Origin: a virus
DNA: 42,149 nt
IMG/VR virus record: IMGVR_UViG_3300006108_000610
Location: 1-42,149 of that record
Reading direction: 5' to 3' (one strand)
Program-made: the position numbers and the translations under genes
The notes under the pieces: model-generated
The model's database searches: none
What the model saw: only the letters and a program-made list of their open reading frames with translations
Told to the model about the DNA's origin: nothing
Part shown: piece by piece, positions 3,522 to 35,357 of the stretch
Layout of the letters: each line of letters begins with the position of its first letter
How positions within the stretch are numbered: position 1 is the stretch's first letter

Positions 3522-3568
3522 ATGCTGATCCTCCACACAGGGTTAGAGTAGATGAGAGTCCCCACTCT

Positions 3569-4585: not shown

Positions 4586-4599
4586 TTAATGGATTTGAT

Positions 4600-8239: not shown

Positions 8240-8542
8240 ATGAGTGAATTTTATGATGACGATCAACCTAATCCGTATGATCGTGATACTTTGTTGAGTG
8301 AACTTCGTCGTTATGCAGTTGAAGTAACTTTCCGTAAGACTAATGGCGAGCAGCGTCGTATGCGTTGTTCGCTTCGTCAAGATCTATTACCAGAAACATA
8401 TCCTGCTGAGATCAAAGAAGAAAAGAAATACCACGCTCAGAATCCAAACGTACTTGCAGTATGGGATCTTGAGAAGGGCGGATGGCGTTCGTTTCGTATG
8501 GACTCTATTCAGTACGTTCAAATCCTGGATGCGTATCAATAA
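8240..8542 (+). CDS. SH3-like beta-barrel protein (WYL_2/DUF2693 type)
   Basis: 100 residues from the ATG at 8240, which follows ggagcctaat; an in-frame start at 8210 lies inside glutaredoxin. The core pattern (VTFRKTNGEQRRMRCSLRQDLLP ... LAVWDLEKGGWRSFRMDSI) matches a small beta-barrel domain common in phages, thought to bind nucleic acid or regulate. No catalytic residues. It is in the same operon as glutaredoxin. Confidence 0.75.
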   Translation: MSEFYDDDQPNPYDRDTLLSELRRYAVEVTFRKTNGEQRRMRCSLRQDLLPETYPAEIKEEKKYHAQNPNVLAVWDLEKGGWRSFRMDSIQYVQILDAYQ

Positions 8543-8548
8543 TAAATA
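8541..8548 (+). promoter_or_regulatory. Possible late promoter (AATAAATA)
   Basis: AATAAATA overlaps the stop of the preceding gene, 33 bases before the decarboxylase start. It differs from the T4 late consensus at one position. Weak evidence on its own; similar boxes elsewhere in the window precede isolated genes. Confidence 0.3.
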
Positions 8549-8580
8549 AGACACTATTGCTCGCACCTATGGAGAAAGAA

Positions 8581-8943
8581 ATGAGCGAAGAGAAATACTG
8601 GGGCAGACAACTTATTATTAATGCCGGAGACTGTGATCCCGAAGCTATCAGAAGCAAAGAAACAATCTATAACTTTTGTAAAGCTCTTTTAAAGAAAATT
8701 GACATGGTTCCTTATGGCGAACCACAGATTGTTCATTTTGGAACAGGTGATAAGGCAGGATATACTCTTGTCCAACTTATCGAAACTTCTAATATCTGTG
8801 CTCATTTCGCAGAAGAGACTAATGATATGTATCTTGATGTCTTTTCTTGTAAGCCTTTTCCACAACATCCTGTTGCTGAATTGGTAAGAGAATATTTCAA
8901 ATGTAATAGATTACGTTATAATCATTTTGACCGACAGGCATAA
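8581..8943 (+). CDS. speD: S-adenosylmethionine decarboxylase proenzyme-like protein
   Basis: 120 residues starting at the ATG at 8581 (site ggagaaagaa). It resembles class 1B AdoMet decarboxylases: an N-terminal GRQLIINAGDCD strand, then S70 in IETSNICAH, H75, and C90 in LDVFSCK. The spacing of these three residues (+5, +15) equals that of the bacterial pyruvoyl-forming serine, histidine and cysteine (63, 68, 83 in Thermotoga). The residue after the serine is Asn instead of His. The enzyme makes decarboxylated SAM for spermidine, useful for DNA packing or as a source of aminopropyl groups. Moderately short but apparently intact. Confidence 0.78.
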   Translation: MSEEKYWGRQLIINAGDCDPEAIRSKETIYNFCKALLKKIDMVPYGEPQIVHFGTGDKAGYTLVQLIETSNICAHFAEETNDMYLDVFSCKPFPQHPVAELVREYFKCNRLRYNHFDRQA

Positions 8944-8958: not shown

Positions 8959-9798
8959 ATGAGTGAATTGATTTGGTCAGACTTCGATATTAATTCAGAA
9001 AACTCTCAAAAGATGATTAAAGCAAAGCAGGTCAATGGCCCAGACTATTGGCCTACTATGCGAGAAGTTTTCAAGTATGATTGTAACCATCTACCGTTGC
9101 CACGATTTCGTTTGTGGGCTTCTTGTTGGAATGTTCCATTCATTACTCAGTATAGAACTTCAAGATTCTTAGGTGAAGCATTCTATCATGCAGCACGCGA
9201 TCCTGCAATTGCTTCTGCTCTTGAAGAAAACTGGATAGGTGCTCCTGATCATATAAGAGATGCTCTACGAGTAGCATCTGACTTCGATACATCTATGCAG
9301 CGTATTCAAGATGTCGCTCATCTTTGTATTACTGGCTTTGCTCATGAACTCAAGAACTATAAATCAATTGTAGAAATTGGTGCTGGTTATGGAGATATGT
9401 GTTCGGTAGTTCATGACATGGGTTTCAGAGGCGAATATACTATCGTTGATATTCCAGAGACTCAGCCTCTTCAAAATTATTATCTTGGTAAGCAAGAAAT
9501 TGAACCTAAGTGGTCATTTGAAGACGATAATGTAACACATGCTGATCTTGTTATTGCTACTTGGTCATTGTCAGAGACTCCAGTTGAGTATAGAAATAAG
9601 TTGATGCCTAAGATTGAGAAGTCAAAGAACTGGCTTATCCTCGCTCAGTCTGCTATCTTTGGCGAAGCAGTGAACGATGATTACTTTAATAAGTTCTTTG
9701 CTGATAAGAATGTTGAGACCATTCCTCTTGTTAGTAGTGGCTTAGATAAATGGGATGGAGGCAATACATATTATGTCGTCAGAGAAAAGCAGAAATAA
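8959..9798 (+). CDS. Putative sugar O-methyltransferase
   Basis: 279 residues. The N-terminal half is helical (YWPTMREVFKY, WNVPFITQYRT); the C-terminal half is a SAM-binding fold with motif I IVEIGAGYGDM and an acidic strand YTIVDIPETQ. The DIPETQ signature and the LVIATWSLSETP segment match the putative sugar O-methyltransferase group found in polysaccharide gene clusters. It is first in a continuous sugar operon (8959-14626) and overlaps the next gene by 26 bases. It may methylate a heptose or other sugar made by the downstream enzymes. The substrate is inference. Confidence 0.75.
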   Translation: MSELIWSDFDINSENSQKMIKAKQVNGPDYWPTMREVFKYDCNHLPLPRFRLWASCWNVPFITQYRTSRFLGEAFYHAARDPAIASALEENWIGAPDHIRDALRVASDFDTSMQRIQDVAHLCITGFAHELKNYKSIVEIGAGYGDMCSVVHDMGFRGEYTIVDIPETQPLQNYYLGKQEIEPKWSFEDDNVTHADLVIATWSLSETPVEYRNKLMPKIEKSKNWLILAQSAIFGEAVNDDYFNKFFADKNVETIPLVSSGLDKWDGGNTYYVVREKQK

Positions 9799-10234
9799 AG
9801 TTACCATCGGTATTACATTCGGAGCATTTGAGCTCTGCCATGCTGGTCATGTCGCCATGCTTAATGAATGTAAGAAGCAATGTCATTGGTTGATAGTAGG
9901 ATTACAAACAGATCCTACTATTGATCGTCCAGGTGTAAAGAACAAACCTATACAGACTACATATGAAAGGTGGATGCAACTTCAAGCATTGAAAGCAGTT
10001 GATGAAGTTATTCCATATGACACTGAAGAAGACCTTCTGAATATGTTATCAATGCTTCATATTGATAAGAGATTCATTGGTTCAGATTATAAAGATGTAG
10101 AAATAAACGGTGCTGATATTTGCAGAGCAAAAAACATAGAAGTAGTGTATATCGAAAGACTACATACATATTCATCGAGCGAATTAAGAAGAAGGTTGAA
10201 TAATGCAAATACTGGAAATGGTAAGACAAGCTGA
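9773..10234 (+). CDS. Cytidylyltransferase-family nucleotidyltransferase (HldE-C/TagD-like)
   Basis: 153 residues from the ATG at 9773, preceded by ggagg inside the upstream gene. Motifs of the HxGH nucleotidyltransferases are clear: TFGAFELCHAGHV (HAGH at 23-26), the middle VGLQTDPTIDR with an ERWMQLQAL segment, then IGSDY and the end motif YSSSELRRR. The family includes heptose-1-phosphate adenylyltransferase and glycerol-3-phosphate cytidylyltransferase. Among genes for a heptose isomerase, kinase and phosphatase, activation of heptose 1-phosphate to an NDP-heptose is the most economical reading. The nucleotide cannot be decided here. Overlaps both neighbours. Confidence 0.82.
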   Translation: MSSEKSRNKVTIGITFGAFELCHAGHVAMLNECKKQCHWLIVGLQTDPTIDRPGVKNKPIQTTYERWMQLQALKAVDEVIPYDTEEDLLNMLSMLHIDKRFIGSDYKDVEINGADICRAKNIEVVYIERLHTYSSSELRRRLNNANTGNGKTS

Positions 10235-10757
10235 ACGTGTTATCGGAGAATTAGTCGCATTCGTTCCTCCAGAAGGAGATGGACTATATCTTGAATTTGG
10301 TGTTGCTTCAGGAACGACCATTCATAGAATAGCTGTTACAACTAAGAATAAAGTATATGGGTTTGATTCTTTTCAAGGATTACCTGAAGACTGGGAAGGA
10401 TATATAGAAGTAAAGGGTGCATATGCCTGTGATATTCCTACAGGATTACCCGAAAACGTAGAACTGGTAGTTGGATTATTTGAAGACACATTACCAAAGT
10501 TCTTAAAGAAACATAAAGAAAACGTAACATTCCTCCATATTGATTGCGATATCTATTCTTCAACTAAATGTATATTTGACAATTTGAAAAAGAGAATTGT
10601 TCCAGGAACAGTTATTGCTTTTGATGAGTTGTATGGTTATCCTAATTGGGAACAACACGAGTATAGAGCATTTAAAGAGTTCCTTGCAGAAACTAAGTAT
10701 AATGTTGAATGCATCGGTAAGTTCGGTGCACATCAGGCGGCGTTTAAAATTCTATAG
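10203..10757 (+). CDS. TylF-type SAM-dependent methyltransferase
   Basis: 184 residues. Motif I is LYLEFGVASGTTIHRI, followed by VYGFDSFQGLPEDW, a signature of the TylF/macrocin O-methyltransferase group, and metal-site-like IDCDIYSS and AFDELYG. Members methylate hydroxyls of sugars in antibiotics and capsules. It overlaps the preceding nucleotidyltransferase by 32 bases and precedes the isomerase gene by 14, where the start is marked by aggattatatattatg. A role in decorating the heptose product is inference. Confidence 0.8.
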   Translation: MQILEMVRQAERVIGELVAFVPPEGDGLYLEFGVASGTTIHRIAVTTKNKVYGFDSFQGLPEDWEGYIEVKGAYACDIPTGLPENVELVVGLFEDTLPKFLKKHKENVTFLHIDCDIYSSTKCIFDNLKKRIVPGTVIAFDELYGYPNWEQHEYRAFKEFLAETKYNVECIGKFGAHQAAFKIL

Positions 10758-10771
10758 AAGGATTATATATT

Positions 10772-11356
10772 ATGAGTCATACGGATGAATATTTCAATGA
10801 GGTAGTAAGTATTGCACAATCAATCGACACACAAAAGATCGAGATCATGGCGAGAGTCCTTGATGATATTCGGAAAAGTGGTGGCCGTGTATTTGTTCTT
10901 GGGGTGGGTGGGTCTGCTGGTAACGCTTCCCATATGGTTAACGACCTTAGAAAACTATGTAACATCCAATCATATTGCCCTACCGACAATGTTCCGGAAC
11001 TTACCGCACGAACAAACGATGAGGGATTCGATACTATCTTTGAGGAATACTTAAAGGTAAGTAACTTCGGTCACAAAGATGCATTGTTCATTCTTTCTGT
11101 TGGTGGCGGTAACAAAGCTAAGAACGTATCTGTAAGTCTTTGTAAGGCAATTGATCTTGCTACAAAAGAAGGCGCTCATGTCCTTGGTATCGTTGGTAAG
11201 ACAGACGGTTACACTTATACGATGGGTAACTGTGTGATCGCTGTTCCTAAAGTAAACGATTCTCGTATCACTCCACATTCAGAAGCATTCCAAGCAGTTG
11301 TTTGGCATTGTCTTGTTTCTAATCCTATTCTTCAGAAGAGGGAGACTAAGTGGTGA
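10772..11356 (+). CDS. gmhA: Phosphoheptose isomerase-like SIS protein
   Basis: 194 residues of the sugar isomerase (SIS) fold: FVLGVGGSAGNASHM, then PTDNVPELTARTNDEG, FILSVGGGNKAKNVS and the end RITPHSEAFQAVVWH. This pattern matches the capsule-cluster branch of sedoheptulose-7-phosphate isomerases. In the classical E. coli enzyme the catalytic pair is Glu and His; the Glu position here is Asp (NDL) and the His position is shifted, so a variant active site is possible. The expected reaction is sedoheptulose 7-phosphate to D-glycero-D-manno-heptose 7-phosphate. The stop overlaps the next gene's start. Confidence 0.8.
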   Translation: MSHTDEYFNEVVSIAQSIDTQKIEIMARVLDDIRKSGGRVFVLGVGGSAGNASHMVNDLRKLCNIQSYCPTDNVPELTARTNDEGFDTIFEEYLKVSNFGHKDALFILSVGGGNKAKNVSVSLCKAIDLATKEGAHVLGIVGKTDGYTYTMGNCVIAVPKVNDSRITPHSEAFQAVVWHCLVSNPILQKRETKW

Positions 11357-11892
11357 AGGCAATCTTTTTAGATCGCGATGGAACTATTAATACACTTATT
11401 CGTGATAGAGAAAATCCAAAGCATGTATGTCCATGGGATTATTCAGAGTTCAGATATATTGATGGTGTGAAAGAAGCAGTTGACTCTTTCCGTGCATGCG
11501 GTTATAATATTCATGTTGTTACTAATCAACCAGACATTGACGATGGTTATACAACTGAAGAAACTATGAATAAGATCCATGAGGATATTGCTAACTATCT
11601 TCATGTAGATTCTATTCAAGCTGCAAGAACTCGTGGCACTGATACATATAAACCAAATCCAGGTATGATTAATAATGTATGTAAAGACTTTGGTGTTAAT
11701 AGAGAAAAGTCTTGGATGATCGGTGATACTTGGAGAGATGTTGTCTCTGGTCATCGTGCTGGTGTGAAGACTATATATCTTGGTGGTGCTTATCTTCCTC
11801 CAGAAGAATATAAAGATATCCAACCAACTCATATAGCAATTGATCTAAAAGAAGCTGCATTGATTATTCAACAGATTGAAGGTGGCAGATGA
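11350..11892 (+). CDS. gmhB: Heptose 1,7-bisphosphate phosphatase-like HAD enzyme
   Basis: 180 residues with all HAD motifs: FLDRDGTIN (nucleophile and acid aspartates), HVVTNQPDI for motif II, a YKPNPGM lysine and IGDTWRDV for motif IV. DRDGTIN is the hallmark of the histidinol/heptose-bisphosphate phosphatase branch. It would remove the C7 phosphate from heptose 1,7-bisphosphate. The start is GTG at 11350 or 11353; the second gives a GTGA overlap with the isomerase stop, and both share ggag as ribosome site. It overlaps the next gene by ATGA. Confidence 0.86.
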   Translation: MVKAIFLDRDGTINTLIRDRENPKHVCPWDYSEFRYIDGVKEAVDSFRACGYNIHVVTNQPDIDDGYTTEETMNKIHEDIANYLHVDSIQAARTRGTDTYKPNPGMINNVCKDFGVNREKSWMIGDTWRDVVSGHRAGVKTIYLGGAYLPPEEYKDIQPTHIAIDLKEAALIIQQIEGGR

Positions 11893-12620
11893 ATATAGAA
11901 ATTTATGCTGATGGCGCTGACTATAAAGGTATTATGGAAGCAGCCAAAAATGATAGGATCACTGGTTTCACTACTAACCCAACATTGATGAAAGCTGCAG
12001 GTGTAACTGATTACCAAAAGTTCGCTGTTGGTATTATTCAAGAGCTTGCACATTTCAGACCAGACACTAATATCTCTCTTGAAGTATTTGCTGATGATAC
12101 TGAGTCAATGTATCTTCAGGCAAAGAAGATCAAGTCATGGGGAGATGCTGCTGGTTACGATGTGTTCGTTAAGATACCTGTAATGAATACAAAAGGCGAG
12201 CATAACTACGGACTGGTTGAGAAGTTATCGGCAGAAGGCGTTAAGGTAAATGTTACTGCTATATTCACACCAGAGCAAACACATAGAGTCCTACAAGCAT
12301 TAGATACTGTCACACCAGCTATTGTTTCTATCTTTGCTGGTCGTATTGCTGATGCTGGTGTTGATCCTGAGTGGAAAGTAACTGAGTGTATGCGAAAGAA
12401 CTTTGAGCACCCAAGACCACATGCTAAGTTTCTTTGGGCGTCAACAAGAGAAGTATTTAACCTAATCCAAGCTGAACGTGTTGGTTGTGATATTATTACT
12501 ATGACCCATGATCAGATTAAGAAGCTAAATAATATTGGTAAAGACCTTACTGAGTTTTCCCAAGATACAGTGAAGATGTTCTACAACGATGCTCTCGCAT
12601 CTGGATATAATATTGACTAA
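11889..12620 (+). CDS. tal: Transaldolase-like protein
   Basis: 243 residues of an aldolase barrel: TGFTTNPTLM near the N-terminus, the Schiff-base lysine K95 in VFVKIPV, VNVTAIFTPEQ and SIFAGRIADAG. This matches short transaldolases (TalC/fructose-6-phosphate aldolase type) also carried by cyanophages. Transaldolase moves a three-carbon unit and can form sedoheptulose 7-phosphate from fructose 6-phosphate and erythrose 4-phosphate. Its position between the phosphatase and kinase genes suggests it feeds the heptose pathway rather than serving the host pentose cycle; that is inference. Confidence 0.88.
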   Translation: MNIEIYADGADYKGIMEAAKNDRITGFTTNPTLMKAAGVTDYQKFAVGIIQELAHFRPDTNISLEVFADDTESMYLQAKKIKSWGDAAGYDVFVKIPVMNTKGEHNYGLVEKLSAEGVKVNVTAIFTPEQTHRVLQALDTVTPAIVSIFAGRIADAGVDPEWKVTECMRKNFEHPRPHAKFLWASTREVFNLIQAERVGCDIITMTHDQIKKLNNIGKDLTEFSQDTVKMFYNDALASGYNID

Positions 12621-12629
12621 GGAGTTGTT

Positions 12630-13634
12630 ATGAAAGGGTTTGAAGAGAATGAGATCTCCATTAATGCTAATGGAGGCACTGAGATCGCCAAGCGTAAGTT
12701 GGCTTCTATTATTGATCCTGAGCTATTAGATAACTTTCAGATTATATGCTCGCGCCCACGTGAACTCGACGAAAGCAAGATTCGTGTATTCTGGTGTCAT
12801 GATCTACCAGAGGATCCAGAGTGTAAGAAGTTCCAGGATAAGAACTGGCTTGCTAAATTTCATAAGTTCGTGTTTATTTCTAACTGGCAGATGCAGCGTT
12901 ATCAGCTTATTCATGGACTACCGCAAGATCTAAAGTCTATTGTTCTTGAATCAGGTATTGAACCTGCTCCTCAGACTTGTTTAGAAAAACCAAAAGATAA
13001 GATCCGTATTGTTTATACTTCAACCCCACAACGTGGTCTTGAGTTACTGCTGCCAGTATTTGAACATTTGGCAGAAAAACATCCTAACATTCATCTTGAT
13101 GTATTCTCTTCATTTAAGATCTATGGTTGGGAAGATGCAGATAAACAGTTCGAGCCTTTATATGAGCGTGTTCGTAAACATCCTCAGATGACTTATCACG
13201 GATTCGTTCCTAATGAACAACTCAAGGAACATCTGAATAAGTCGCATATCTTTGCTTATCCTTCTATCTGGACAGAGACTTCATGTCGTGCGATGCTTGA
13301 GGCAATGTCAGCTGGTCTGCTTTGTGTTCATCCTAATACAGCTGCTCTTCCAGAATCATCTGGTGGTTTGAATATTATGTATCATGCAGATCTTACTGAT
13401 GCTAATGTTCACGCTGGTGTGTTTGCTGGTAATCTATTTGCTGCTATTAAGATGATTGAGGATAATAACGAGCAACATACTATTAACTTTAATAAAGTTT
13501 ATGTTGACTCTCGTTATAATATTGATTTTGTAAAGTCTCGCTGGGATGCTGTTCTTAATAGACTTCTTGTTGAGTATCCTGATGCTGAATCAAGAAAGTT
13601 TCCTGCGGAGATGTTTTCCTATAAGGTAGGATAA
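12630..13634 (+). CDS. Glycosyltransferase, GT4-like (GT-B fold)
   Basis: 334 residues. The N-terminal domain has FWCHDLPEDP and FVFISNWQMQRY; the C-terminal domain has the nucleotide-sugar site YTSTPQRGLELLLPVF, then FAYPSIWTETSCRAMLEAMSAG with an EX7E motif, and PNTAALPES. These are features of retaining GT4 enzymes. The likely donor is the NDP-heptose of this operon; the acceptor may be host surface glycan, a phage structural protein or modified DNA. It begins after aaggag and its end overlaps the kinase gene by one base. Confidence 0.85.
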   Translation: MKGFEENEISINANGGTEIAKRKLASIIDPELLDNFQIICSRPRELDESKIRVFWCHDLPEDPECKKFQDKNWLAKFHKFVFISNWQMQRYQLIHGLPQDLKSIVLESGIEPAPQTCLEKPKDKIRIVYTSTPQRGLELLLPVFEHLAEKHPNIHLDVFSSFKIYGWEDADKQFEPLYERVRKHPQMTYHGFVPNEQLKEHLNKSHIFAYPSIWTETSCRAMLEAMSAGLLCVHPNTAALPESSGGLNIMYHADLTDANVHAGVFAGNLFAAIKMIEDNNEQHTINFNKVYVDSRYNIDFVKSRWDAVLNRLLVEYPDAESRKFPAEMFSYKVG

Positions 13635-14626
13635 TGATTGTAACTCGAACACCACTACGTATTAGTTTCTTCTCTGGCGGTAGCGATATGCCATCTTTCT
13701 ATGAAAAGGAGGATGGTGCTGCCCTCTCTGTAACGATCAACAAGTTTATTCATGTATTCATGCATAGAGCACCTCATATGGGTGTTAAGGCAATGTATGA
13801 TTCTGTTGAAGAACTGTATGATGTCGAACAGATGCAGCACGCTATTACTCGAGAGACACTGAAGTATTTCGGCATTGAAAGAGAAGTAACTACCGCATCC
13901 ATTTCAGATATTGCTTCGAGGGGTTCTGGACTCGGTAGTTCTTCTGCTTTCACTGTTGGTCTTGTAAAAGCAATGTCTTCTTACAGCTATGATACATTCA
14001 CAAGAGATCAAATGGCAGAGGTCGCTTGTAATATTGAAATGAATAAGTGTGGTTATCCTGTAGGTAAGCAGGATCAATATGCAGCTGCATTTGGTGGATT
14101 AAATCTATTTCACTTCAAACGTAATGGCACAGTAAAGGTTGAAGAGTATAGTTTAACAAATCCTAATGTTAAAAGATTAGAACAGAACCTAATGCTTGTT
14201 TATTCTGGCAGAGGAAGAGATGCTAATAACATTCTACAGAAACAACAGAAGGCAATGTCAAACTCTGAAAAGTTTGATCTTGTAAGAAAGTCCAGAGACA
14301 AAGCATTCACTGCCAGAGATCTATTACTTGCTGGTAAGGTTGATGAGTTCGGTCGTCTTCTTCATGAAGGATGGATGGACAAGAAGAATGTATGTGCTGA
14401 TATTACTCAGGATTATTTTGATAATATATACAATACTGCTATTGACTCAGGTGCTCTCGGGGGTAAACTACTCGGAGCAGGTGGCGGTGGCTTCTTCATC
14501 TTTTATGTTCCAGAGAACCGTAGGACTTCTGTAGAAGGAGCTATCTCATCAAAACATATCGACTGTAGGATATACGATTTTGAGTTTTTCGGTACTGGAG
14601 CAAGTATCGTCTACCATCAAATTTAA
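13634..14626 (+). CDS. hddA: D-glycero-D-manno-heptose 7-phosphate kinase-like GHMP kinase
   Basis: 330 residues of the GHMP kinase family, with an HddA-like N-terminus VTRTPLRISFFSGGSDMPSF. The ATP loop is SRGSGLGSSSAFTVGL; a C-terminal glycine-rich motif is GALGGKLLGAGGGGFF. HddA phosphorylates heptose 7-phosphate at C1 with ATP, the step between the isomerase and phosphatase encoded in the same operon. Related sugar kinases for fucose share the fold, but the combination with GmhA- and GmhB-like genes favours heptose. It is the last gene of the sugar operon. Confidence 0.87.
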   Translation: MIVTRTPLRISFFSGGSDMPSFYEKEDGAALSVTINKFIHVFMHRAPHMGVKAMYDSVEELYDVEQMQHAITRETLKYFGIEREVTTASISDIASRGSGLGSSSAFTVGLVKAMSSYSYDTFTRDQMAEVACNIEMNKCGYPVGKQDQYAAAFGGLNLFHFKRNGTVKVEEYSLTNPNVKRLEQNLMLVYSGRGRDANNILQKQQKAMSNSEKFDLVRKSRDKAFTARDLLLAGKVDEFGRLLHEGWMDKKNVCADITQDYFDNIYNTAIDSGALGGKLLGAGGGGFFIFYVPENRRTSVEGAISSKHIDCRIYDFEFFGTGASIVYHQI

Positions 14627-14664: not shown

Positions 14665-15063
14665 ATGGCTAGAAAAACTTCAAACAACGTAGTAGTCTTT
14701 CCTAAGAAGTCTACAAATGCAAAAGATATCCAGAACCTGGAAGAGATCCAGTATAATCTGGAGATGATGAGGCATTATCATATTCAGGAGACTATTCTGA
14801 ATATGGCTCCTATTATTTTCAACAACTTAGATATCGCTGGCTTTGGGCTGGACGAAGAGCTTGACGGAGACGTTAAGGATGGTGCTTTCATAGTAGAAGC
14901 ATTACGCTCTCTTATGTGTAAGTACTATGGTATCTATCATCCTTTTCAGGATGTAGCAGAAAAGATCTTTTCAGAAGAAGCTGAAGAGAAAGGTGTCTTT
15001 AAGATCGTAGATAGACTTAATATAAAATTCAAGAAATCCGAATTCGGAAAAGGTGACAAGTGA
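14665..15063 (+). CDS. Conserved T4-like phage protein of unknown function (132 aa)
   Basis: Lies just upstream of rnh and overlaps it by 4 bases. The N-terminus is basic (ARKTSNNVVVFPKKS), the middle helical (EEIQYNLEMMRHYHIQETILNMAPIIF). The rest contains DGAFIVEALRSLMCKYYG. Similar proteins accompany rnh in other T4-like phages. No catalytic motif. There is no ribosome site at ordinary distance from the ATG, which agrees with a leaderless start from the promoter at 14630. A start at an internal ATG (14764, after ggag) is the alternative. Confidence 0.7.
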   Translation: MARKTSNNVVVFPKKSTNAKDIQNLEEIQYNLEMMRHYHIQETILNMAPIIFNNLDIAGFGLDEELDGDVKDGAFIVEALRSLMCKYYGIYHPFQDVAEKIFSEEAEEKGVFKIVDRLNIKFKKSEFGKGDK

Positions 15064-15917
15064 TTATCGTAGATCTAAATCAAGTAATGCTCTCCAATCT
15101 GCTAATGCAGTTGGGTAATCATACTAACGCTCAGTTAGAAGAAAACATGGTTCGCCATATGATCTTAAACTCTATCCGTTCTTATCGGGTAAAGTTCGGG
15201 GCGGAATATGGCGAGCTCGTTATCGCATGTGATAACACTAATATTTGGCGTAAGAAGGTATATCCTTATTACAAGGCCAACCGTAAGAAGAACTTAGAGA
15301 AGTCCGAGATGGACTGGAAGGCTATCTTTGATTGTCTTTCTAAGATCCGTTCTGAGTTAAAAGAATACTTTCCCTATAAAGTTATAGATGTAGAGTCTGC
15401 AGAAGCTGATGATGTTATCGGTACTCTGGTCAATAAGTTTGGTTCAGAACTAAATACGGGTGAAAAGATTCTCGTCCTTTCAGGAGATAAAGATTTTATT
15501 CAACTCCATACATACGCTAACGTATCTCAGTATGATCCTACTCGTAAGAAGTGGATAAAGAACAGTGACCCAGTTCGTTACCTCAAAGAGCATATACTAA
15601 AAGGTGATTCGGGCGATGGTGTTCCTAATGTTCTTTCTGATGATGACACCTTTGTCACAAATAAGCGACAGAAGCCTATGACAGTCAAACGTATTGAGGA
15701 GTTTCTTAAGCAGGATCCTAATCTTTATGACGGTAAAGTATTTAAGAACTGGCAACGTAACAAAGAACTTATTGATCTTACTAACACGCCAGACTATATA
15801 AAAGAGCAGGTACTTACTCAGTTTAATGAACAATCAGGTAAGAACCGTAGTAAGTTGCTAAACTATTTTATTGCTAATAAGATGAAACATCTAATAGAAC
15901 ACTTGAGTGAATTCTAA
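15060..15917 (+). CDS. rnh: T4-type RNase H, 5'-3' exonuclease of the FEN family
   Basis: 285 residues. Removes RNA primers and 5' flaps during lagging-strand synthesis. Acidic metal-binding motifs of the flap endonuclease family are in order: IIVDLNQ, VIACDNTN followed by YPYYKANRKKN, SAEADDVIG, LSGDKDFIQL and GDSGDGVPN. The start is GTG at 15060, overlapping the previous stop (GTGA). As in T4 it sits near other replication accessory genes; gene 32 and 59 homologues are not next to it here. Confidence 0.93.
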   Translation: MIIVDLNQVMLSNLLMQLGNHTNAQLEENMVRHMILNSIRSYRVKFGAEYGELVIACDNTNIWRKKVYPYYKANRKKNLEKSEMDWKAIFDCLSKIRSELKEYFPYKVIDVESAEADDVIGTLVNKFGSELNTGEKILVLSGDKDFIQLHTYANVSQYDPTRKKWIKNSDPVRYLKEHILKGDSGDGVPNVLSDDDTFVTNKRQKPMTVKRIEEFLKQDPNLYDGKVFKNWQRNKELIDLTNTPDYIKEQVLTQFNEQSGKNRSKLLNYFIANKMKHLIEHLSEF

Positions 15918-16561: not shown

Positions 16562-16656
16562 TGAAAACGTATCTTGATTCTACGACTATCAAGAAAGTAT
16601 ATTTGGATTCAACAACTATCAAGAAAAGATATCTTGATTCAACGAGTACGAAATAA
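16561..16656 (+). CDS. 31-residue protein made of three tandem repeats
   Basis: A short frame, MKT followed by YLDSTTIKKV, YLDSTTIKKR and YLDSTSTK. It starts inside the stop of the previous gene (TAATG) after ggag with correct spacing, and its own stop overlaps the ATG of the endonuclease gene in the same way. Synonymous differences between repeats suggest the protein repeat is under some constraint. Lys-, Ser- and Thr-rich; function unknown. Confidence 0.55.
   Translation: MKTYLDSTTIKKVYLDSTTIKKRYLDSTSTK
16570..16653 (+). repeat. Three tandem 30-base repeats
   Basis: Units begin at 16570, 16600 and 16630; the last is cut short at 24 bases by the stop. The first two share most bases, and substitutions are mostly at third codon positions. 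The array lies directly before a homing endonuclease gene. Confidence 0.85.
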
Positions 16657-25578: not shown

Positions 25579-25617
25579 AATATATTTTCCTTTTTCAAGT
25601 TTTTTCGGGCTACTTTA

Positions 25618-28354: not shown

Positions 28355-29014
28355 TCAGAACTGAGAGTTAGACTCAACAGCAATAAAGTACTCGACTTCA
28401 GTATCTACACCAACGAAATGCGAGATTCCGCGAGCAGAGATAGTTACCTCATAAGTTCCTGGGATAATCTTAATGTTTTCAGCCTTAAACACAGCCTTAA
28501 ACACCTTATCAGTCTGACCGATACCTACTGACCAATCATTGCTGGTTGGATTCTTAGAATCAGTTGCGACAAGAGAAACTGTCTTACCATCACCAACTAC
28601 AGCAATCTCAGGAAGCTGAAGAACACCTGCAGCCTTTTCAACTGCAATTAGATCTTCATTCTTAAGAGTGAAAGTAGCATCAACTGAAGGCAAAGAGATC
28701 TCTTTCTCTGGAGCCTTAGTAACGGTGCTCTCGTCAGCATAAGTGAAGTGGCTCTTACGGTTATCTTCAGTAATAGCAACAGACTTATCAGAGAACTTCA
28801 ACTCTGGATCGCGGAAAGTCGAGAGGAGAGCAATGAACTGATCAAGATTATATACGGCAAAACGCTGACCGAACTTTGTAGGAACAGTTGCCTTGGCCAT
28901 AATAGTCTTAGTCGGGGAGATAGTCTTCAGAACATTACCCTCCTGAACGACGATCGAAGGGTTGATCTTCGAGAAATTCTTCAGGACATTCACAGTATTT
29001 GTATCAATCTTCAT
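28355..29014 (-). CDS. 45: DNA polymerase sliding clamp gp45
   Basis: 219 residues from the ATG at 29014, after aaggaag. A trimeric ring that tethers DNA polymerase and, in T4, activates late transcription with gp55 and gp33. Recognised by position (45-44-62-regA order), length (T4 228) and pattern: MKIDTNTVNVLKNFSKINPSIVV at the start, FAVYNLDQFIALLS and VGIGQTDKVFKAVFKAENIKIIPG. The start MKIDTNTV lies behind the ribosome site; a longer in-frame start is ignored. Confidence 0.93.
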   Translation of the reverse strand: MKIDTNTVNVLKNFSKINPSIVVQEGNVLKTISPTKTIMAKATVPTKFGQRFAVYNLDQFIALLSTFRDPELKFSDKSVAITEDNRKSHFTYADESTVTKAPEKEISLPSVDATFTLKNEDLIAVEKAAGVLQLPEIAVVGDGKTVSLVATDSKNPTSNDWSVGIGQTDKVFKAVFKAENIKIIPGTYEVTISARGISHFVGVDTEVEYFIAVESNSQF

Positions 29015-29031
29015 AATATAACTTCCTTTCT

Positions 29032-29943
29032 TCACTTACGTTTCGCTGCTACTTTTTTAACTTTGTTAGTCGAATGAAACTTCTTATCTTGGTTTTTTTT
29101 ATTGCCTAATGCACCTGGATCAGCTGTAGCCGAAGCACCGATAGAAGCAAGATCAGCTAATGAACCACCAAAGATATAAGTGCCAACATGTTGCATCTTC
29201 ATCCATGGACAGAACCAAGTCTTAAGTTCGATCTCTTGAGCTTTCTGACAGAACCAATAATCCTCTGAAAGATAACGGTTGGACTTCTCACAAACCTCAG
29301 CCTGGAAGAACATTAGAATCTTACGAGAACCATCGAAGTGTTCAGTACGAACATGATCAGGAGTATACAGATAACGATCCTTGTAAGAATCATAGAACTT
29401 CTGCATAGCCTTCTTAGATACCATCATGAAGCCAGTACCAATCTCAAGAACCTCTACTGGTTGATTAAGAGGAATAGACGTCTGTCCACCTTTTGGATTA
29501 AACACATAATCACCGACAAAGTTCTCAAGAACATTAGGATCCTTATCTGCGATACCCTTATCTACTGCCAGCTTAATCTTTTCCCAAGAGATACATTTCT
29601 TAGGATAAGGACCACCGATAATATCATACTTCTCATCTTGAGCTTGAAGAGCCATCATAGCAATAATGTCATGTGGATTAAATCCAATGTCCGAGTCGAT
29701 AAACATCAGATGCTCTGCCTCTGAACGCATGAACTCATCGCAGCAATAGTTACGTGCGCGAGTAATCAGAGACTCATTAAACAGATAATAGAACTGGAGA
29801 GGAATACCATACTGAGCACAAAGAGCAGCTAAGTCAGCTGTCGATTTAGCAAACATACCTGCGCACTGACCACCATACATTGGCGTCGCAATAAACAACT
29901 TACGCTTGCGAAGCTCTTCAATCGGAATTTGAATTTGTTCCAT
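29032..29943 (-). CDS. GT-A-like glycosyltransferase
   Basis: 303 residues. The N-terminal domain begins LFIATPMYGGQCAG, carries RARNYCCDEFMRSEAEHLMFIDSD with the metal-binding DSD at 83-85, and later MQHVGTY; this is the pattern of GT-A glycosyltransferases found in T4-like phages. The C-terminus is Lys-rich (KNQDKKFHSTNKVKKVAAKRK) and could bind DNA. It follows the hypermodification genes in the same direction and could put a sugar on a hydroxylated base; the acceptor is unproven. Starts after aaaggtga. Confidence 0.75.
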   Translation of the reverse strand: MEQIQIPIEELRKRKLFIATPMYGGQCAGMFAKSTADLAALCAQYGIPLQFYYLFNESLITRARNYCCDEFMRSEAEHLMFIDSDIGFNPHDIIAMMALQAQDEKYDIIGGPYPKKCISWEKIKLAVDKGIADKDPNVLENFVGDYVFNPKGGQTSIPLNQPVEVLEIGTGFMMVSKKAMQKFYDSYKDRYLYTPDHVRTEHFDGSRKILMFFQAEVCEKSNRYLSEDYWFCQKAQEIELKTWFCPWMKMQHVGTYIFGGSLADLASIGASATADPGALGNKKNQDKKFHSTNKVKKVAAKRK

Positions 29944-29959
29944 ACTATAGTCACCTTTC

Positions 29960-30187: not shown

Positions 30188-30570
30188 TTCGAATCCTTAT
30201 AATGGTCAACATAAAGACACATCAATACATAATGAAGAGTCTTCATAAGATCATCCTTATTAGATCCCTTCTTCTTACCATAACGCCACAGATACTTTAG
30301 AGCGGTGTTACGGAATGTAGGCATAGAATCACCAAGAGCAATCCAGGCGTCGAAACATTCAACTGCTTCTTCTTCTGTCTTATAGTGCTGATTGTATGTC
30401 TTATCTATATATGCTTGGAAGTCGGAGATAATCTTATTTTCGGCATATTTATATTTTGGAGATTGATCAACCATCACCGTTTTATATGGTGTTCCATTTT
30501 CAAAAGTATATGTTGCTCTATGGTCTCCAAGACCTCCAGTTGAAGTATACATTGTATTTCCGTATTCCAT
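30184..30570 (-). CDS. DUF3310-like nucleotide-kinase-like protein
   Basis: 128 residues starting at the second of two adjacent ATGs (30570), behind ggagg. The C-terminal pattern (ECFDAWIALGDSMPTFRNTALKYLWRYGKKKGSNKDDLMKTLHYV) matches the small phage domain that ends with LKYLWRYGKK and a DL(M/K)K helix, often annotated DUF3310. Its N-terminus differs (GGLGDHRATYTFENGTPY). It overlaps the kinase gene by one base. Role unknown. Confidence 0.75.
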   Translation of the reverse strand: MEYGNTMYTSTGGLGDHRATYTFENGTPYKTVMVDQSPKYKYAENKIISDFQAYIDKTYNQHYKTEEEAVECFDAWIALGDSMPTFRNTALKYLWRYGKKKGSNKDDLMKTLHYVLMCLYVDHYKDSK

Positions 30571-31106
30571 CATGCCTCCAATCTATTCATAATATAGTCT
30601 ACTATAATTTCTTGATCTTGTAAAGTATTATTTTTAAATTTAGATGTATTAAACATCAGTGTCATATTAGAAAGAATATTAGCGATCTTAGATTCTCTAC
30701 CACGGAGCCATGTTTCATTCTGATTAGATCCACGCTCCTTATAACGATCCTCACGAATAGACTTATCTGTCTCGAGATATAGAATATCAGTGTCGTAGTT
30801 CTCAACACAATGTTCAAGAAAAGAGGCAGTGAAGAGGCGATCGCCTTCAAATAGAACAACAGCGTCGCTCGGAAGGGTAGCTAAGAACTTCACTGCCTCT
30901 GGCTGGACGGCCATAGACATCCTGTCAGTACCAGAGAATGTCTCGCCATCTTCATATTTGCCCAAAACGTAATAATTACTGCACTGTAAATATGGAACTA
31001 ATTTGAAATTAGTATATTGTTCTTTCCAATCTAACTTAGAAAGAATCTGTTTCATCAATGTGGACTTACCAGCGCCTGGTTCACCACCGATAGCGATTAC
31101 TCTCAT
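30570..31106 (-). CDS. P-loop kinase, candidate DNA-base (5-hydroxymethyluracil) kinase
   Basis: 178 residues. Walker A is GEPGAGKST at 8-16 after MRVIAIG; an acidic strand VVLFEGDRLF and a lid-like segment DRYKERGSNQNETWLRGRESK follow. This resembles the P-loop kinases that phosphorylate 5-hydroxymethyl-dU in DNA of hypermodified phages. Closely spaced with a JBP/TET-like dioxygenase and a pyrophosphorylase-like gene, that assignment is plausible. It could instead be a small-molecule kinase, for example for inositol phosphate or a nucleotide. Overlaps both neighbours by 4 bases or fewer. Confidence 0.68.
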   Translation of the reverse strand: MRVIAIGGEPGAGKSTLMKQILSKLDWKEQYTNFKLVPYLQCSNYYVLGKYEDGETFSGTDRMSMAVQPEAVKFLATLPSDAVVLFEGDRLFTASFLEHCVENYDTDILYLETDKSIREDRYKERGSNQNETWLRGRESKIANILSNMTLMFNTSKFKNNTLQDQEIIVDYIMNRLEA

Positions 31107-31483
31107 TTACGTCTCACATTCTCTTTGTTAACAAGATCTGAAACAACATGAACAATACGGATGTCAGGGATTAATCTCTTAATCTCTGCTATCTGAACTT
31201 CATCATCTTCAAAATGAACTCCGTGTTCATATCCTTTTTGTTTTAACTGAATTATTGTTCTTGCTTTATGTATACCAGAAGACTCTCTTGACTTCTCATC
31301 AAATTTCTCTGGGTTGAAATATACTTTATTCTTAATACCCTTGCGATTCAACATCGCAAGAGTTTCTTCTGTCTCTTCGTAGCTTCTGCCTGTAATGATG
31401 ATATCGATGGGACCTGGATAGATCCCATCGTGTTCTTCTAAGAAGATAACACCATCAATATCGAAAGTGTTAATCTTACGCAT
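31103..31483 (-). CDS. Small HAD-superfamily phosphatase
   Basis: 126 residues. Motif I is FDIDGVIF (D8, D10), motif II IIITGRS, a lysine in GIHKARTI, and motif IV HFEDDEVQ (91-95). No cap domain, so it probably acts on an accessible or macromolecular substrate. It overlaps the inositol-phosphate synthase gene by 8 bases, and removal of the phosphate from inositol 1-phosphate is an attractive guess. Other HAD proteins of this size occur in phages as 5'-nucleotidase or polynucleotide phosphatase-like enzymes. Confidence 0.78.
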   Translation of the reverse strand: MRKINTFDIDGVIFLEEHDGIYPGPIDIIITGRSYEETEETLAMLNRKGIKNKVYFNPEKFDEKSRESSGIHKARTIIQLKQKGYEHGVHFEDDEVQIAEIKRLIPDIRIVHVVSDLVNKENVRRK

Positions 31484-32603
31484 AGTAGTTCTTAGCCTTT
31501 AGAGCGTTTGTGTCACGTTCAGCGAAAGCAGCACATTCAGCTTTAGCATCTGAATATTGCATCTGCTGCGGAGGAGTCTTCTGAGTCCAAGCAGAAGGAC
31601 CACGGAGAGCACCAACGATACCCATCTCCTTAGCAACCTTCAGATAACGGATAGCATCAATAACAACGCCAGCAGAATTCTCTGAATCTTGAACAGAGAG
31701 TTTAGCATCAATTGTAATAGGAGCATCACCGAAACCACGGAGACGGATGTTAAGATAAGCAACCTTGTTATCTTTTAGATAAGGAATAAAGGTTGACGGA
31801 CCAGCGAACAATGCTTCTGAATCAATAGGAATACCACGGAGATCATTCTGAGCACGAATAACATTCTCTTTTGACTTCTTCTTAGAAGCAAGACGGCTCT
31901 GAACCATCATGTTATTGAAGTCAGAGTTACCGCCAACATTCAGCTGCTGATGGAAGTCTACAATAGCACCACGATCAAATGCAAGCTCTTGAAGAACCTG
32001 CGAGAGAATAGAAGCACCAACCTGCGAACGCATGTCATCGCCAACGATAGGCAGACCTGCGTCAATGAACTTCTTCTCCCATTTAGGATCAGAAGCGATG
32101 AAGACAGGAATACAATTTAAGAAAGATACACCAGCGTCGATAGCACACTGAGCATAGAACTCTGTTGCTTCTTGCGAACCGACTGGTAGATAATTAATAA
32201 GGATCTCTGCACGAGATTCTTTCAGAGCAGCGACAACGTCAACTGCTTCTTCATTAGAAACACGGAAACCATATTTCTCTGGTTGAGACTGCATATACTC
32301 AGAAACACCATCAAGCACAGGACCCATCTGAACGATTGGACCATCTGGAACATCATCACAGAATACACGAGCACAGTTTGGCTTTGCGAAAATAGCTTCG
32401 CCAAGAGGACGGCCAACCTTACGACGATCAACGTCGAATGCTGCTACAACTTTAATATCGGAAGGATGATAACCACCGATACGTGAAAACATAATACCAG
32501 GAATGTTCTCTTCGTCGTGATCTTTGTAATACTCAAGACCTTGATAGAGAGACGACAGACAGTTACCAACGCCAACAACGGCGACACGAATTTTCTTAGA
32601 CAT
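31476..32603 (-). CDS. ino1: Myo-inositol-1-phosphate synthase
   Basis: 375 residues, closely resembling the actinobacterial and archaeal-type enzyme. The NAD site is VAVVGVGNCLSSLYQGLEYY; then VVAAFDVDRRKVG, INYLPVGSQEATEFYAQCAIDAG, NCIPVFIASDP, GDDMRSQVGASI, QLNVGGNSDFNNM and LRLRGFGDAP-like IRLRGFGDAPI, GVVIDAIRYLK. It converts glucose 6-phosphate to inositol 1-phosphate with internal NAD. Inositol synthesis is uncommon in bacteria other than actinobacteria and rare in phages. It lies in an operon with a JBP/TET-like dioxygenase, kinase and HAD phosphatase, so inositol may be a group added to DNA. It starts after aaaggagaaaa. Confidence 0.94.
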   Translation of the reverse strand: MSKKIRVAVVGVGNCLSSLYQGLEYYKDHDEENIPGIMFSRIGGYHPSDIKVVAAFDVDRRKVGRPLGEAIFAKPNCARVFCDDVPDGPIVQMGPVLDGVSEYMQSQPEKYGFRVSNEEAVDVVAALKESRAEILINYLPVGSQEATEFYAQCAIDAGVSFLNCIPVFIASDPKWEKKFIDAGLPIVGDDMRSQVGASILSQVLQELAFDRGAIVDFHQQLNVGGNSDFNNMMVQSRLASKKKSKENVIRAQNDLRGIPIDSEALFAGPSTFIPYLKDNKVAYLNIRLRGFGDAPITIDAKLSVQDSENSAGVVIDAIRYLKVAKEMGIVGALRGPSAWTQKTPPQQMQYSDAKAECAAFAERDTNALKAKNYYA

Positions 32604-32685: not shown

Positions 32686-32714
32686 ATATTACTATGAACA
32701 ATAAGAAAAGTCAA
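32686..32714 (-). promoter_or_regulatory. Sigma70-type promoter for the inositol synthase operon
   Basis: On the minus strand TTGACT (32714-32709), 17 bases, TAATAT (32691-32686), overlapping the end of the upstream gene. The remaining 80 bases to the start at 32603 form a leader in which I see no other element. Confidence 0.55.
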
Positions 32715-33960
32715 CTGCTTTATCACTCCAAGCAGGATGATCTTTTGGTTTAAATTTTAGATAGTTTACAGGATTATACTTCTTACATAACACCTTTCTT
32801 TTCTTGACATCAAAAGATTGCTCCCATTCGCTTTTCATAGTATGAGCAGCTGTAGGTATAATCTTAGGAAGCTCTAACAACTCATGAGCGTTTAACTCAT
32901 CCTTATAAAGATGATGAGTATTAAGATTAAGACCTGTATTCACCATTACCTTAAAGTAGTCTGGATGAAAACCATAGTCCGTAACATTTTTACCTTTCGT
33001 CATAAACCCAACAACATATGGAGTCCAATCAACCTTACCTGGACCATCATAATCTTTCCAAAGATCTAATAACTTATCATACATCTCTACCAATTCATTA
33101 GTAGTCCAGAATGTAAACTCCTTAATCTTAGGACCATAGGCAGTCTTACGAAACTCACACTCAACTGATTCGATATTGTATATGTCAACGTGAAAAGGCA
33201 TTCTCCTATTCATTTCTTCCATAAGATGAATAGTATTCTTTTCCATTAACTGCTTATCTGCTTTGGTTGGTTCATAGGTCTTAACTTCAAGAACATGACC
33301 GTACTCGTCAGTAATTTTCTGCTTACGAGCAATATCAATTCTATTGAAAAGATAACAAATAGAATCATACTGAGACCAAGTAGCATTATCATATAACTGC
33401 TGATCCCAATGATCAATATCCCAATCAAACAATTCATAAAGAGTCTGTTGAGCGAGCCAAGCAGTCATTCTGCCCATTGAATAGAATTCTTGTAAGCAGT
33501 TATTTAAAGAGAAGTAGTTCTTTTCTCTTGAACCAGCATTAGCAGCATTACCAAGATACTCATATAGGCTACCTTTGCCTATACGCTTTTTCATATCAAT
33601 AACAAACTGTGGAAACTTACGAACATTCCACTTAGTATCATTACCGAATTTCATTCTACGCCAATTCTTATTATGCCAATCAATTAACTGATCGTCAGAC
33701 ATATTCCAAAGATCTAACTGCATAGCAATCATTGACCAATGGTTACGGTAAGACTGACCGAAATACATAGCATAAAGAGCTTTCTGCTCATTATCATAAT
33801 TGGAGTAATCACATATTACTTTACCAACGTGGTGGTGATCGAGATCGCCTTCAACAAAACGAACATGCGTAACACGAGCGAACGCTTCAATTCTATTTTC
33901 AGGCAATCTCCAATCTACATAACCAGGAAGATCTCTAACCTTAACATAATCTAAATTCAT
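32692..33960 (-). CDS. Candidate thymine pyrophosphorylase/transferase-like protein (aGPT-Pplase clade)
   Basis: 422 residues, mostly helical, rich in Trp, Tyr and Asp. The region YFGQSYRNHWSMIAMQ, then FGNDTKWNVRKFPQF and FYSMGRMTAWLAQQTLYEL with a following WSQYDSICYLFNR resembles the alpha-glutamyl/putrescinyl thymine pyrophosphorylase proteins, a DNA-glycosylase-related fold used by phages to replace an activated base group by an amino acid or polyamine. I cannot confirm the family without a profile search. It overlaps the dioxygenase gene by ATGA and probably acts on its product. Confidence 0.55.
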   Translation of the reverse strand: MNLDYVKVRDLPGYVDWRLPENRIEAFARVTHVRFVEGDLDHHHVGKVICDYSNYDNEQKALYAMYFGQSYRNHWSMIAMQLDLWNMSDDQLIDWHNKNWRRMKFGNDTKWNVRKFPQFVIDMKKRIGKGSLYEYLGNAANAGSREKNYFSLNNCLQEFYSMGRMTAWLAQQTLYELFDWDIDHWDQQLYDNATWSQYDSICYLFNRIDIARKQKITDEYGHVLEVKTYEPTKADKQLMEKNTIHLMEEMNRRMPFHVDIYNIESVECEFRKTAYGPKIKEFTFWTTNELVEMYDKLLDLWKDYDGPGKVDWTPYVVGFMTKGKNVTDYGFHPDYFKVMVNTGLNLNTHHLYKDELNAHELLELPKIIPTAAHTMKSEWEQSFDVKKRKVLCKKYNPVNYLKFKPKDHPAWSDKAVDFSYCS

Positions 33961-35330
33961 CCGAAAAATGACTCCAGGTTTGCTTCTTCAGCTTTGCCAT
34001 AAGGATCCTTCATACCATGCGCATGAAGATAATCATACCACTCTTTACTTTCCCACATACCAGGAGACACGCCATTCCACAATGGGCGTTGAAGATGATG
34101 AGATTTATTCAATCTACGTTCATCAACAAACTGTCTACGTAGAACTTCATACTCATAAGATTTTAACTCTAACATCTTTTCACGGAAGTAACAAACTACC
34201 GAGATTCTTTCGCAATTAGGATTATCAGGGCTATTAAGTATAATAGGAGTATTACCATGTATGATTTCATGGTTATTAACGAGAAGAAGATCGCCAGGAC
34301 GGACGTTAACAGCAACACGATATTCAGGAAATATAAGATAACCACCAGTGTATTCTCCTGTTCCTAAGACAAGTAGATTAGAAAGACCAGAATCAAGATC
34401 TCCGGCATCTCTATGAGCAGCTGTACGGAAAGTCTTATTCACTGTAATAGTTGTGAACACAGTTTCCGGTACAAGAAATCTTGGATCCATTTTATCCGCA
34501 GCTGCCTTCTGATTAGCCCAACGCCATGGCAACAGTTCTTTGAAACCTCTGTTAAGAGATTGTAAGAATGGATACGATTTAGCAAATAGTTCTGGATTTT
34601 TTTCAGTATAAGCAGTAGCACGACCATAAGGAATACGAGGATAACGGTCATACCAACCAGCAACACCAGAGAATACTGACTTAGCATAGTTAGTTGTTGA
34701 TGCCCACTTCTCAGCTACCTTTATAGCTTCTGCACGGATATCCTCTTTTGGCTTATTAGATAAACCATCAACCCATTTATCAAACCATCCATGATACTCA
34801 GGATATACTTTAGTTACCTCTGAACGTAACCAAACAGTTCCTCTTGTTTCATCTGCTGGTTTGAACTTAGGATCGGCGTATTTTGCACGGATCTTTTCAA
34901 TTGAGTTATCATTAAACAGAGATGCTCCGTCATCCATAAGAAACTCAAGAATCTCATGTTGATAAGGCGAAACCCAATCTCTACCACCTCTGCCTTCACA
35001 TGCTAACATTGGCCCACGAGGACCAGCAGCAAGACCACGATTCTGCGATTCGGTTGCAGCTTCTCTTAAGCCAACATATGCTTCTTCACATTCTTCTTTT
35101 GTAAAGTAGTTCTTACGTAACTTAAATGCGATACGAAGTTCATCATTACCCTTATCGCAGTCTTCACACTCTTTGGAGCCACAATCTGCCTTTGTTGCAA
35201 CATCACATAATGGAGGCATATAACAATCACAATCCTCCTCAATCAACTTATCATAATGACTTTCATCAAGAAAAGTTCCAAGAAGATGTTCACAATCTAA
35301 TTTTTCACGAGCAACAATACGTCTTACCAT
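33957..35330 (-). CDS. JBP/TET-like 2OG-Fe(II) dioxygenase, candidate DNA base hydroxylase
   Basis: 457 residues starting at the ATG at 35330, 6 bases after ggagg; an in-frame ATG at 35348 would lie at the transcript end. The C-terminal domain has HRD at 306-308 (AAHRDAGDLDSGLSNLLVLG), GGYLIFPEYRVAV, PGDLLLVNNHEIIHGN (H358) and R375 in CERISVV, the order and spacing of JBP1/TET enzymes that oxidise thymine or 5-methylcytosine in DNA. The N-terminus has seven cysteines (DCDCYMPPLCD, ADCGSKECEDCD) that may bind zinc. A consensus promoter lies upstream. The base modified is unknown. Confidence 0.82.
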   Translation of the reverse strand: MVRRIVAREKLDCEHLLGTFLDESHYDKLIEEDCDCYMPPLCDVATKADCGSKECEDCDKGNDELRIAFKLRKNYFTKEECEEAYVGLREAATESQNRGLAAGPRGPMLACEGRGGRDWVSPYQHEILEFLMDDGASLFNDNSIEKIRAKYADPKFKPADETRGTVWLRSEVTKVYPEYHGWFDKWVDGLSNKPKEDIRAEAIKVAEKWASTTNYAKSVFSGVAGWYDRYPRIPYGRATAYTEKNPELFAKSYPFLQSLNRGFKELLPWRWANQKAAADKMDPRFLVPETVFTTITVNKTFRTAAHRDAGDLDSGLSNLLVLGTGEYTGGYLIFPEYRVAVNVRPGDLLLVNNHEIIHGNTPIILNSPDNPNCERISVVCYFREKMLELKSYEYEVLRRQFVDERRLNKSHHLQRPLWNGVSPGMWESKEWYDYLHAHGMKDPYGKAEEANLESFFG

Positions 35331-35357
35331 CACGGCCTCCAAATACATTCATCATAT

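Follow-up and report, generated by a model that had tools for sequence, protein, structure and literature searches.

The window analysed here, the 42,149-nucleotide (42 kb) stretch of an uncultivated virus record, carries T4-type genes for the sliding clamp, clamp loader, gp46/gp47 and RNase H, as well as ribonucleotide reductase. Between positions 9773 and 14626 it also contains a compact set of sugar genes, referred to below as the cassette, that is predicted to make a nucleoside diphosphate (NDP)-heptose around a resident glycosyltransferase of family GT4. In the explanation we favor, to which we assign a probability of roughly one half, the phage operates its own NDP-heptose factory and the GT4 transfers the resulting sugar onto phage DNA.

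The cassette consists of six core genes and one methyltransferase, all contiguous and on the + strand, with gene ends that mostly overlap by a few bases or are separated by gaps of <15 bases. An earlier interpretation of this DNA from its letters alone, hereafter the sequence-only reading, had claimed a contiguous, unidirectional set at this location, and each of its genes is indeed present. The genes are as follows:

9773..10234, + strand: nucleotidyltransferase, HldE C-domain/cytidylyltransferase-like (Pfam CTP_transf_like, NCBIfam rfaE_dom_II, phrog_7878); presumed heptose-1-phosphate nucleotidyltransferase
10203..10757, + strand: methyltransferase of the TylF/Methyltransf_24 type; optional accessory inside the cassette
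10772..11356, + strand: SIS isomerase of a divergent GmhA-like subfamily; presumed sedoheptulose-7-phosphate isomerase
11350..11892, + strand: HAD phosphatase of the GmhB/HisB type; presumed heptose-1,7-bisphosphate 7-phosphatase
11889..12620, + strand: transaldolase, TIGR02134; presumed source of sedoheptulose 7-phosphate
12630..13634, + strand: GT4, a retaining GT-B glycosyltransferase with an EX7E motif (Glycos_transf_1 profile); conserved anchor of the locus
13634..14626, + strand: HddA-like GHMP sugar kinase; presumed heptose-7-phosphate 1-kinase

Predicted activities of the sugar enzymes

The labels GmhA, GmhB, HddA and HldE denote best-family assignments that score below the curated equivalog cut-offs, and are not equivalog calls. 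By sequence, D-glycero-D-manno-heptose kinases are clearly the nearest relatives of the kinase. The NCBIfam HddA profile gives 155 bits (cut-off 600) against 68 for the next family, and the top PDB matches are 3K85 (E=3.5e-40), WcbL 4UT4 (~1e-35) and 4N3O. The transaldolase scores 286.6 bits, over the curated TIGR02134 cut-off of 281.95, and has a Phe rather than a Tyr in its SxFxGR segment; Phe at this segment is characteristic of transaldolases and Tyr of fructose-6-phosphate aldolase.

The isomerase scores 45 bits with the GmhA profile, under the equivalog cut-off of 209-265, but GmhA is still its best sequence match, and a fold search with its AlphaFold model (predicted local distance difference test (pLDDT) score of 83) ranks GmhA structures first in the PDB. 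Relative to GmhA, two histidines are retained, whereas two other positions change from Glu to Asp and from Gln to Glu; following the GmhA literature, we take all four to be active-site residues. The HAD phosphatase scores 87 bits (GmhB cut-off 178), with nearly equal HisB and GmhB scores, and its HAD motifs are preserved across relatives. Profile searches place the nucleotidyltransferase closest to the HldE C-domain, with rfaE_dom_II as its best NCBIfam match at 82.6 bits (cut-off 181.5), and its best PDB matches are ethanolamine-phosphate and glycerol-3-phosphate cytidylyltransferases. It possesses an RxHxYSSS motif that is kept in most relatives, with the variants YSSS, FSSS and YSST. The (F/L)XXGRSTT motif ('GRSTT'), which marks the STTR5 promiscuous heptose nucleotidyltransferases (PMC11573728), is absent from this protein in the window and in its relatives.

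An NDP-sugar epimerase (PF01370) was not found in nine long relatives, which suggests that there is no HldD step and that the product is most likely D,D-heptose. The origin of the feedstock is suggested by bacterial counterparts. The isomerase has close relatives in genomes of Nitrospira, Verrucomicrobia, Kiritimatiellae, Lentisphaerae, Firestonebacteria and SAR11, and in 19 of 20 such loci the isomerase subfamily is paired with the same type of transaldolase, often accompanied by a HAD protein plus either an HddA-like kinase or a nucleotidyltransferase-kinase fusion. This pairing supports the transaldolase as the supplier of sedoheptulose 7-phosphate to the isomerase, the role that the sequence-only reading had given it. 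Those bacterial loci that were inspected for context are set amid other polysaccharide genes. Separately, 14 of 297 SAR11-order genomes (for example, L188-L200) carry the same isomerase-transaldolase sets of heptose type.

Altogether, it is likely that the cassette specifies an NDP-heptose pathway. The sequence-only reading had proposed this pathway, and the affinity of the kinase, the fold ranking of the isomerase and the bacterial pairing all agree with it. It had also considered that profiles might assign the kinase and isomerase to other sugars: the kinase clearly stays with HddA, whereas the isomerase has GmhA as its best profile but remains under the equivalog cut-off.

Conservation of the cassette

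The borders of the locus are formed by the following genes:

8482..8943, + strand: S-adenosylmethionine decarboxylase (PF02675); usual left neighbor of the locus
8959-9798: NanM-like methyltransferase, left of the cassette; found in some relatives only
14665-15063, + strand: small conserved protein; with RNase H, the fixed right border of the locus
15060-15917, + strand: T4-type RNase H (rnh); with the small conserved protein, the fixed right border

Searches with the kinase and isomerase yielded 102 distinct viral contigs, 53 of which have enough flank for comparison. All six core genes are found in the same order and on the same strand in 51 of these 53, a proportion conditional on the contigs having been picked for holding a cassette gene (the isomerase). 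In 51 of the 53, rnh also follows the kinase by no more than 2.5 kb, and the S-adenosylmethionine decarboxylase is upstream in 42 of the 43 contigs with enough flank on that side. Thus, the co-occurrence in related genomes that the sequence-only reading looked to is borne out, whereas its view that such sets are rare on phages is not supported, as the set is close to fixation across a T4-like lineage that is itself widespread. Its inclusion of the flanking methyltransferases was too firm: the methyltransferase within the cassette (10203-10757) is missing from many relatives, and the patchy presence of this gene and of 8959-9798 suggests that methylation is optional.

The cassette genes are under purifying selection, with median ratios of nonsynonymous to synonymous substitution of 0.06-0.20, compared with 0.05 for rnh. 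In trees of the isomerase, transaldolase and kinase, the phage sequences group into a single clade with strong support each time, which points to acquisition long ago followed by shared inheritance rather than recent capture from a host. A recent transfer of the sugar genes from SAR11 was considered and rejected, because the phage genes form separate clades. In these trees the SAR11 locus L200 was labeled among the other bacteria, with no bearing on the monophyly of the phage genes. At the DNA level, a search of phage records returned matches limited to fragments of 60-90 bases.

GT4 as the constant element of the locus

The neighboring rnh served as a second, less biased bait, with loci drawn from its 80 closest matches. 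Among the matches listed, the GT4 lies upstream of rnh in 58 of 61 loci, the heptokinase in 38 only. The genes around the GT4 fall into types. Type A is the gene set of the window; type B has a kinase and a canonical GmhA-like isomerase without the transaldolase, the epimerase being present or absent; type C has the epimerase only; and type D has no recognised sugar-nucleotide pathway. One type D locus (L210:2512-4058) is reduced to the GT4 and the HAD gene, the latter 94% identical to those of full-cassette relatives, which suggests that its other sugar genes were recently lost.

The GT4 tree is divided at 100/95 support. All heptose-cassette rows (A, B and K) lie on one side together with three of type D, and the opposite side contains types C and D only. 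The GT4 subtype therefore tracks the type of cassette, suggesting that the enzyme uses the cassette product, and we regard its use of the cassette-made heptose as likely, judging from these sequence relationships. The protein itself is modeled with a GT-B fold (pLDDT 90), matches the GT4 family, and has invariant EX7E residues E216 and E224. Homologues of 35-44% identity are found in T4-like phages of Caulobacter, Stenotrophomonas, Sinorhizobium, Rhizobium and Ochrobactrum, and in Sinorhizobium phage phiM12 and Rhizobium phage RHph_I1_18 the homologue retains its position upstream of rnh and phoH.

DNA-modification genes and the acceptor

A cluster of genes for DNA-base hypermodification, which also includes a HAD-like protein, is found on the - strand at 29032-35348, between gp46 and gp45 (the latter is listed with it):

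33957..35348, - strand: TET/JBP-type 2-oxoglutarate (2OG)-Fe dioxygenase (PF12851); presumed 5-methylpyrimidine hydroxylase acting on DNA
32692..33960, - strand: ADDT (amino acid:DNA transferase) family protein (PF18724, 40.9 bits, cut-off 26.2); possible further DNA hypermodification
31476..32603, - strand: myo-inositol-1-phosphate synthase-like protein (PF01658, 76 bits), in the TET gene cluster
30570..31106, - strand: P-loop kinase-like protein, in the TET gene cluster
29032..29943, - strand: GT-A-type glycosyltransferase-like protein (phrog_1574) with conserved DxD and SEDY, adjoining the sliding clamp; candidate partner of the GT4
28355..29035, - strand: sliding clamp (gp45; phrog_223), marking the replisome operon

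The dioxygenase matches PF12851 at 84.2 bits (cut-off 34.9), and its HxD, H and R residues are invariant in 11 sequences. Most genomes with the GT4 also encode TET, which is found in 13 GT4-bearing records besides the window, including Cr30 and DLP6. Three GT4-bearing contigs without TET instead have a gp42-type dCMP hydroxymethylase, a close homologue of T4 gp42, and these enzymes carry Asp where thymidylate synthase has Asn. In the same three contigs (G317, G315 and G316; loci L276, L277 and L278), the gp42-type gene stands beside a dCMP-deaminase-like open reading frame (ORF).

The GT-A protein gives weak Pfam matches only, but its distribution follows that of the GT4. All complete cultured T4-like genomes that have the GT4 also encode the GT-A, at identities of at least 43%. 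Of 17 long GT4-bearing viral contigs, 15 have it and the remaining two are records of 79 and 100 kb; it was not found in three T4-like phages without the GT4. In DLP6, Cr30, phiM12 and OC, its gene lies close to gp46 and/or gp45.

A hydroxymethylase of the thymidylate-synthase type was not found in type A genomes, which at first argued against DNA as the acceptor, an objection removed by the discovery of TET. The main reason for preferring DNA is that one GT4/GT-A lineage appears to have two routes to a hydroxymethyl base. We give about even odds to the acceptor being a hydroxymethylated pyrimidine of the phage's own DNA. The sequence-only reading had left the acceptor among host surface, virion and DNA; the TET/JBP enzyme, the GT-A beside the clamp and the gp42-type enzymes of relatives point to DNA, without proving it.

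Several observations weigh against DNA as the acceptor. Neither TET nor a gp42-type enzyme was found in phiM12, RHph_I1_18 or Ochrobactrum phage OC, all of which have both the GT4 and the GT-A; phiM12 and RHph_I1_18 possess ordinary thymidylate synthase only, and OC has neither this nor a gp42-type enzyme. A C5-cytosine methyltransferase was not found in the TET-bearing genomes tested; the TET substrate could be host 5-methylcytosine or thymine. Neither the GT4 nor the GT-A has a significant match to T4 alpha-GT or beta-GT, and assignment of the GT-A to the TAGT family was rejected for want of a significant match to T6 TAGT. In fold searches, the GT4 retrieves generic members of its own family as best matches, among them transferases for proteins and for teichoic acid, so that the acceptor is not discriminated. 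The pelagiphage HTVC027P, which is not T4-like, has adjacent GT4 and GT-A-like genes near its tail genes (L161, 5983-7825), and TET was not found in it. The ADDT protein and inositol synthase may modify the TET product in another way; G002 has no detectable homologue of either, and G004 has a weak ADDT match only. Finally, the counts of GT4/GT-A/TET co-occurrence ignore the relatedness of the genomes.

The inositol-phosphate synthase (31476-32603) is 63-65% identical to proteins of Stenotrophomonas T4-like phages such as Moby and IME-SM1, in which GT4 and GT-A searches gave no match. In phage DLP6 (L290:1710-3401), a fused nucleotidyltransferase and APH-type kinase is encoded directly upstream of TET, and is possibly a donor-making gene beside the dioxygenase.

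Proposed mechanism

In the mechanism that we infer, from the individual enzymatic steps to heptose use by the GT4 and DNA as acceptor, the transaldolase would generate sedoheptulose 7-phosphate, which the SIS isomerase would convert to D-glycero-D-manno-heptose 7-phosphate. The HddA-like kinase would then phosphorylate the latter at C1, the HAD enzyme would strip the 7-phosphate, and the nucleotidyltransferase would yield NDP-D,D-heptose, from which the GT4 would move the heptose onto its acceptor. The acceptor base would be hydroxymethylated by the TET/JBP dioxygenase or, in some relatives, by the gp42-type dCMP hydroxymethylase. The GT-A beside the sliding clamp may belong to this pathway too, and could attach the other of two sugars if the modification is a disaccharide. 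The DNA sugar would serve as a shield against restriction or CRISPR, and exchange of cassettes would let the lineage switch sugars. Taken in full, that is, a T4-like lineage placing self-made D,D-heptose, possibly as part of a two-sugar unit, on TET- or gp42-hydroxylated DNA bases from a constant glycosyltransferase locus that swaps cassettes, the scheme falls slightly short of an even chance.

Alternative explanations

The GT4 might instead heptosylate the lipopolysaccharide (LPS) or capsule of the host, blocking superinfection or the binding of progeny to debris. The bacterial relatives of the sugar genes do sit among polysaccharide genes, WaaG is among the fold neighbors of the GT4, and LPS-type genes of pelagimyophages have been interpreted in this way (PMC7029224). 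However, the GT4 is conserved near rnh and phoH across phages of unrelated hosts with differing surfaces, and it tracks the GT-A of the replisome operon. Moreover, the nine long relatives searched for an NDP-sugar epimerase yielded none, and only one of them has a GT2. Remodeling of the host surface is accordingly an unlikely explanation.

Glycosylation of the virion, with the GT4 placing heptose on a capsid or tail protein, would fit the gene arrangement of HTVC027P and the presence of the protein O-glycosyltransferases SdgB and GtfA among the best fold matches of the GT4. It is rendered rather improbable by the T4-like members, which group these genes with those for nucleotide metabolism and replication and not with structural genes.

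We similarly think it improbable that the product of the cassette is some other activated sugar, with the divergent isomerase, HAD enzyme and nucleotidyltransferase using another sugar phosphate. These three and the kinase are all under equivalog cut-offs, two GmhA active-site positions seem altered, and the nucleotidyltransferase is without the STTR5 motif, but the similarity of the kinase to heptokinases is strong and full-length, and the isomerase fold and transaldolase association fit sedoheptulose 7-phosphate. Because the genes have bacterial relatives, contamination with bacterial DNA might be entertained, as might a recent insertion by chance with no phage function, but either is extremely improbable given the T4-type rnh and phoH flanks in dozens of viral contigs, the single phage clades and the purifying selection.

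Other features of the window

Three more proteins of the 2OG-Fe(II) oxygenase type are encoded at 4552-5127, 21556-22116 and 40542-41156, one of them FlmC-like. Homing-endonuclease-like ORFs are found at 2952-3536, 3604-4059, 16656-17225 and 25418-26254, and that at 16656-17225 resembles the GIY-YIG type by eye. The T4 late-promoter motif TATAAATA shows no clear enrichment, and sigma-70-like sites occur at chance level. The nearest cultured relatives by gp46 are DLP6, Melnitz and cyanophages (46-49% identity).

Relation to known systems

Functionally, the predicted system resembles phage DNA glycosylation, with neither transferase homologous, by the tests made here, to a proven DNA glycosyltransferase. 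Similar to T-even DNA glucosylation (gp42, alpha-GT/beta-GT, T6 TAGT), it involves a T4-like phage, genes in the replication region and two glycosyltransferases; a hydroxymethylated base is the proposed acceptor, and some relatives have a gp42-type enzyme. The T6 example shows that DNA can receive a disaccharide through the action of two transferases (PMC13216743). The main differences are that the GT4 and GT-A are, by the same tests, non-homologous to alpha-GT and beta-GT (and the GT-A to TAGT), that the sugar would be phage-made, and that base oxidation would proceed mostly via TET. Phage RB69, which carries candidate sugar-supply genes for DNA arabinosylation, including one for a SIS-type protein (PMC6024577), is similar in pairing phage-encoded supply with an unusual DNA sugar, whereas its sugar, on arabinosyl-hydroxymethylcytosine, is arabinose rather than heptose, its transferase is another one and it uses gp42 in place of TET.

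With the bacterial GDP-D,D-heptose pathway (GmhA-HddA-GmhB-HddC), the cassette has in common the isomerase, GHMP heptokinase and phosphatase families, but it has an HldE-C-type nucleotidyltransferase in place of HddC, an extra transaldolase and a divergent isomerase subfamily. The SIS-HAD-transaldolase-kinase loci of SAR11, Kiritimatiellae and other bacteria contain the same families, often in the same order; however, several have a fused nucleotidyltransferase-kinase, they have no adjoining phage-type GT4, and the phage genes form their own clades. Virus-encoded NDP-heptose enzymes have already been reported, their viral role being stated as unsolved (PMC11573728); unlike those, the cassette is without the STTR5 motif, and a role and an acceptor are proposed here. 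Among cultured phages, Caulobacter phage Cr30 has a GT4 (43% identity), a kinase (37-40%), an isomerase, TET (46%) and a GT-A (55%), and differs in that its locus has no transaldolase and an epimerase gene lies upstream. No report of heptose on DNA was found in the open literature searched, most subscription papers being outside the search.

If the proposal is correct, the heptosylation of DNA would be a novel modification that adds a seven-carbon sugar to those known on phage DNA, and it would assign a role to virus-encoded heptose enzymes of unsolved function (PMC11573728). It would also connect the TET/JBP enzymes of phages with one particular sugar further down the pathway. Cr30, which grows on the laboratory bacterium Caulobacter crescentus, provides a cultured phage that encodes an isomerase as well as homologues of the GT4, kinase, TET and GT-A. 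More broadly, a fixed transferase combined with an exchangeable sugar supply would constitute a modular design of the kind predicted by an arms race with modification-dependent restriction.

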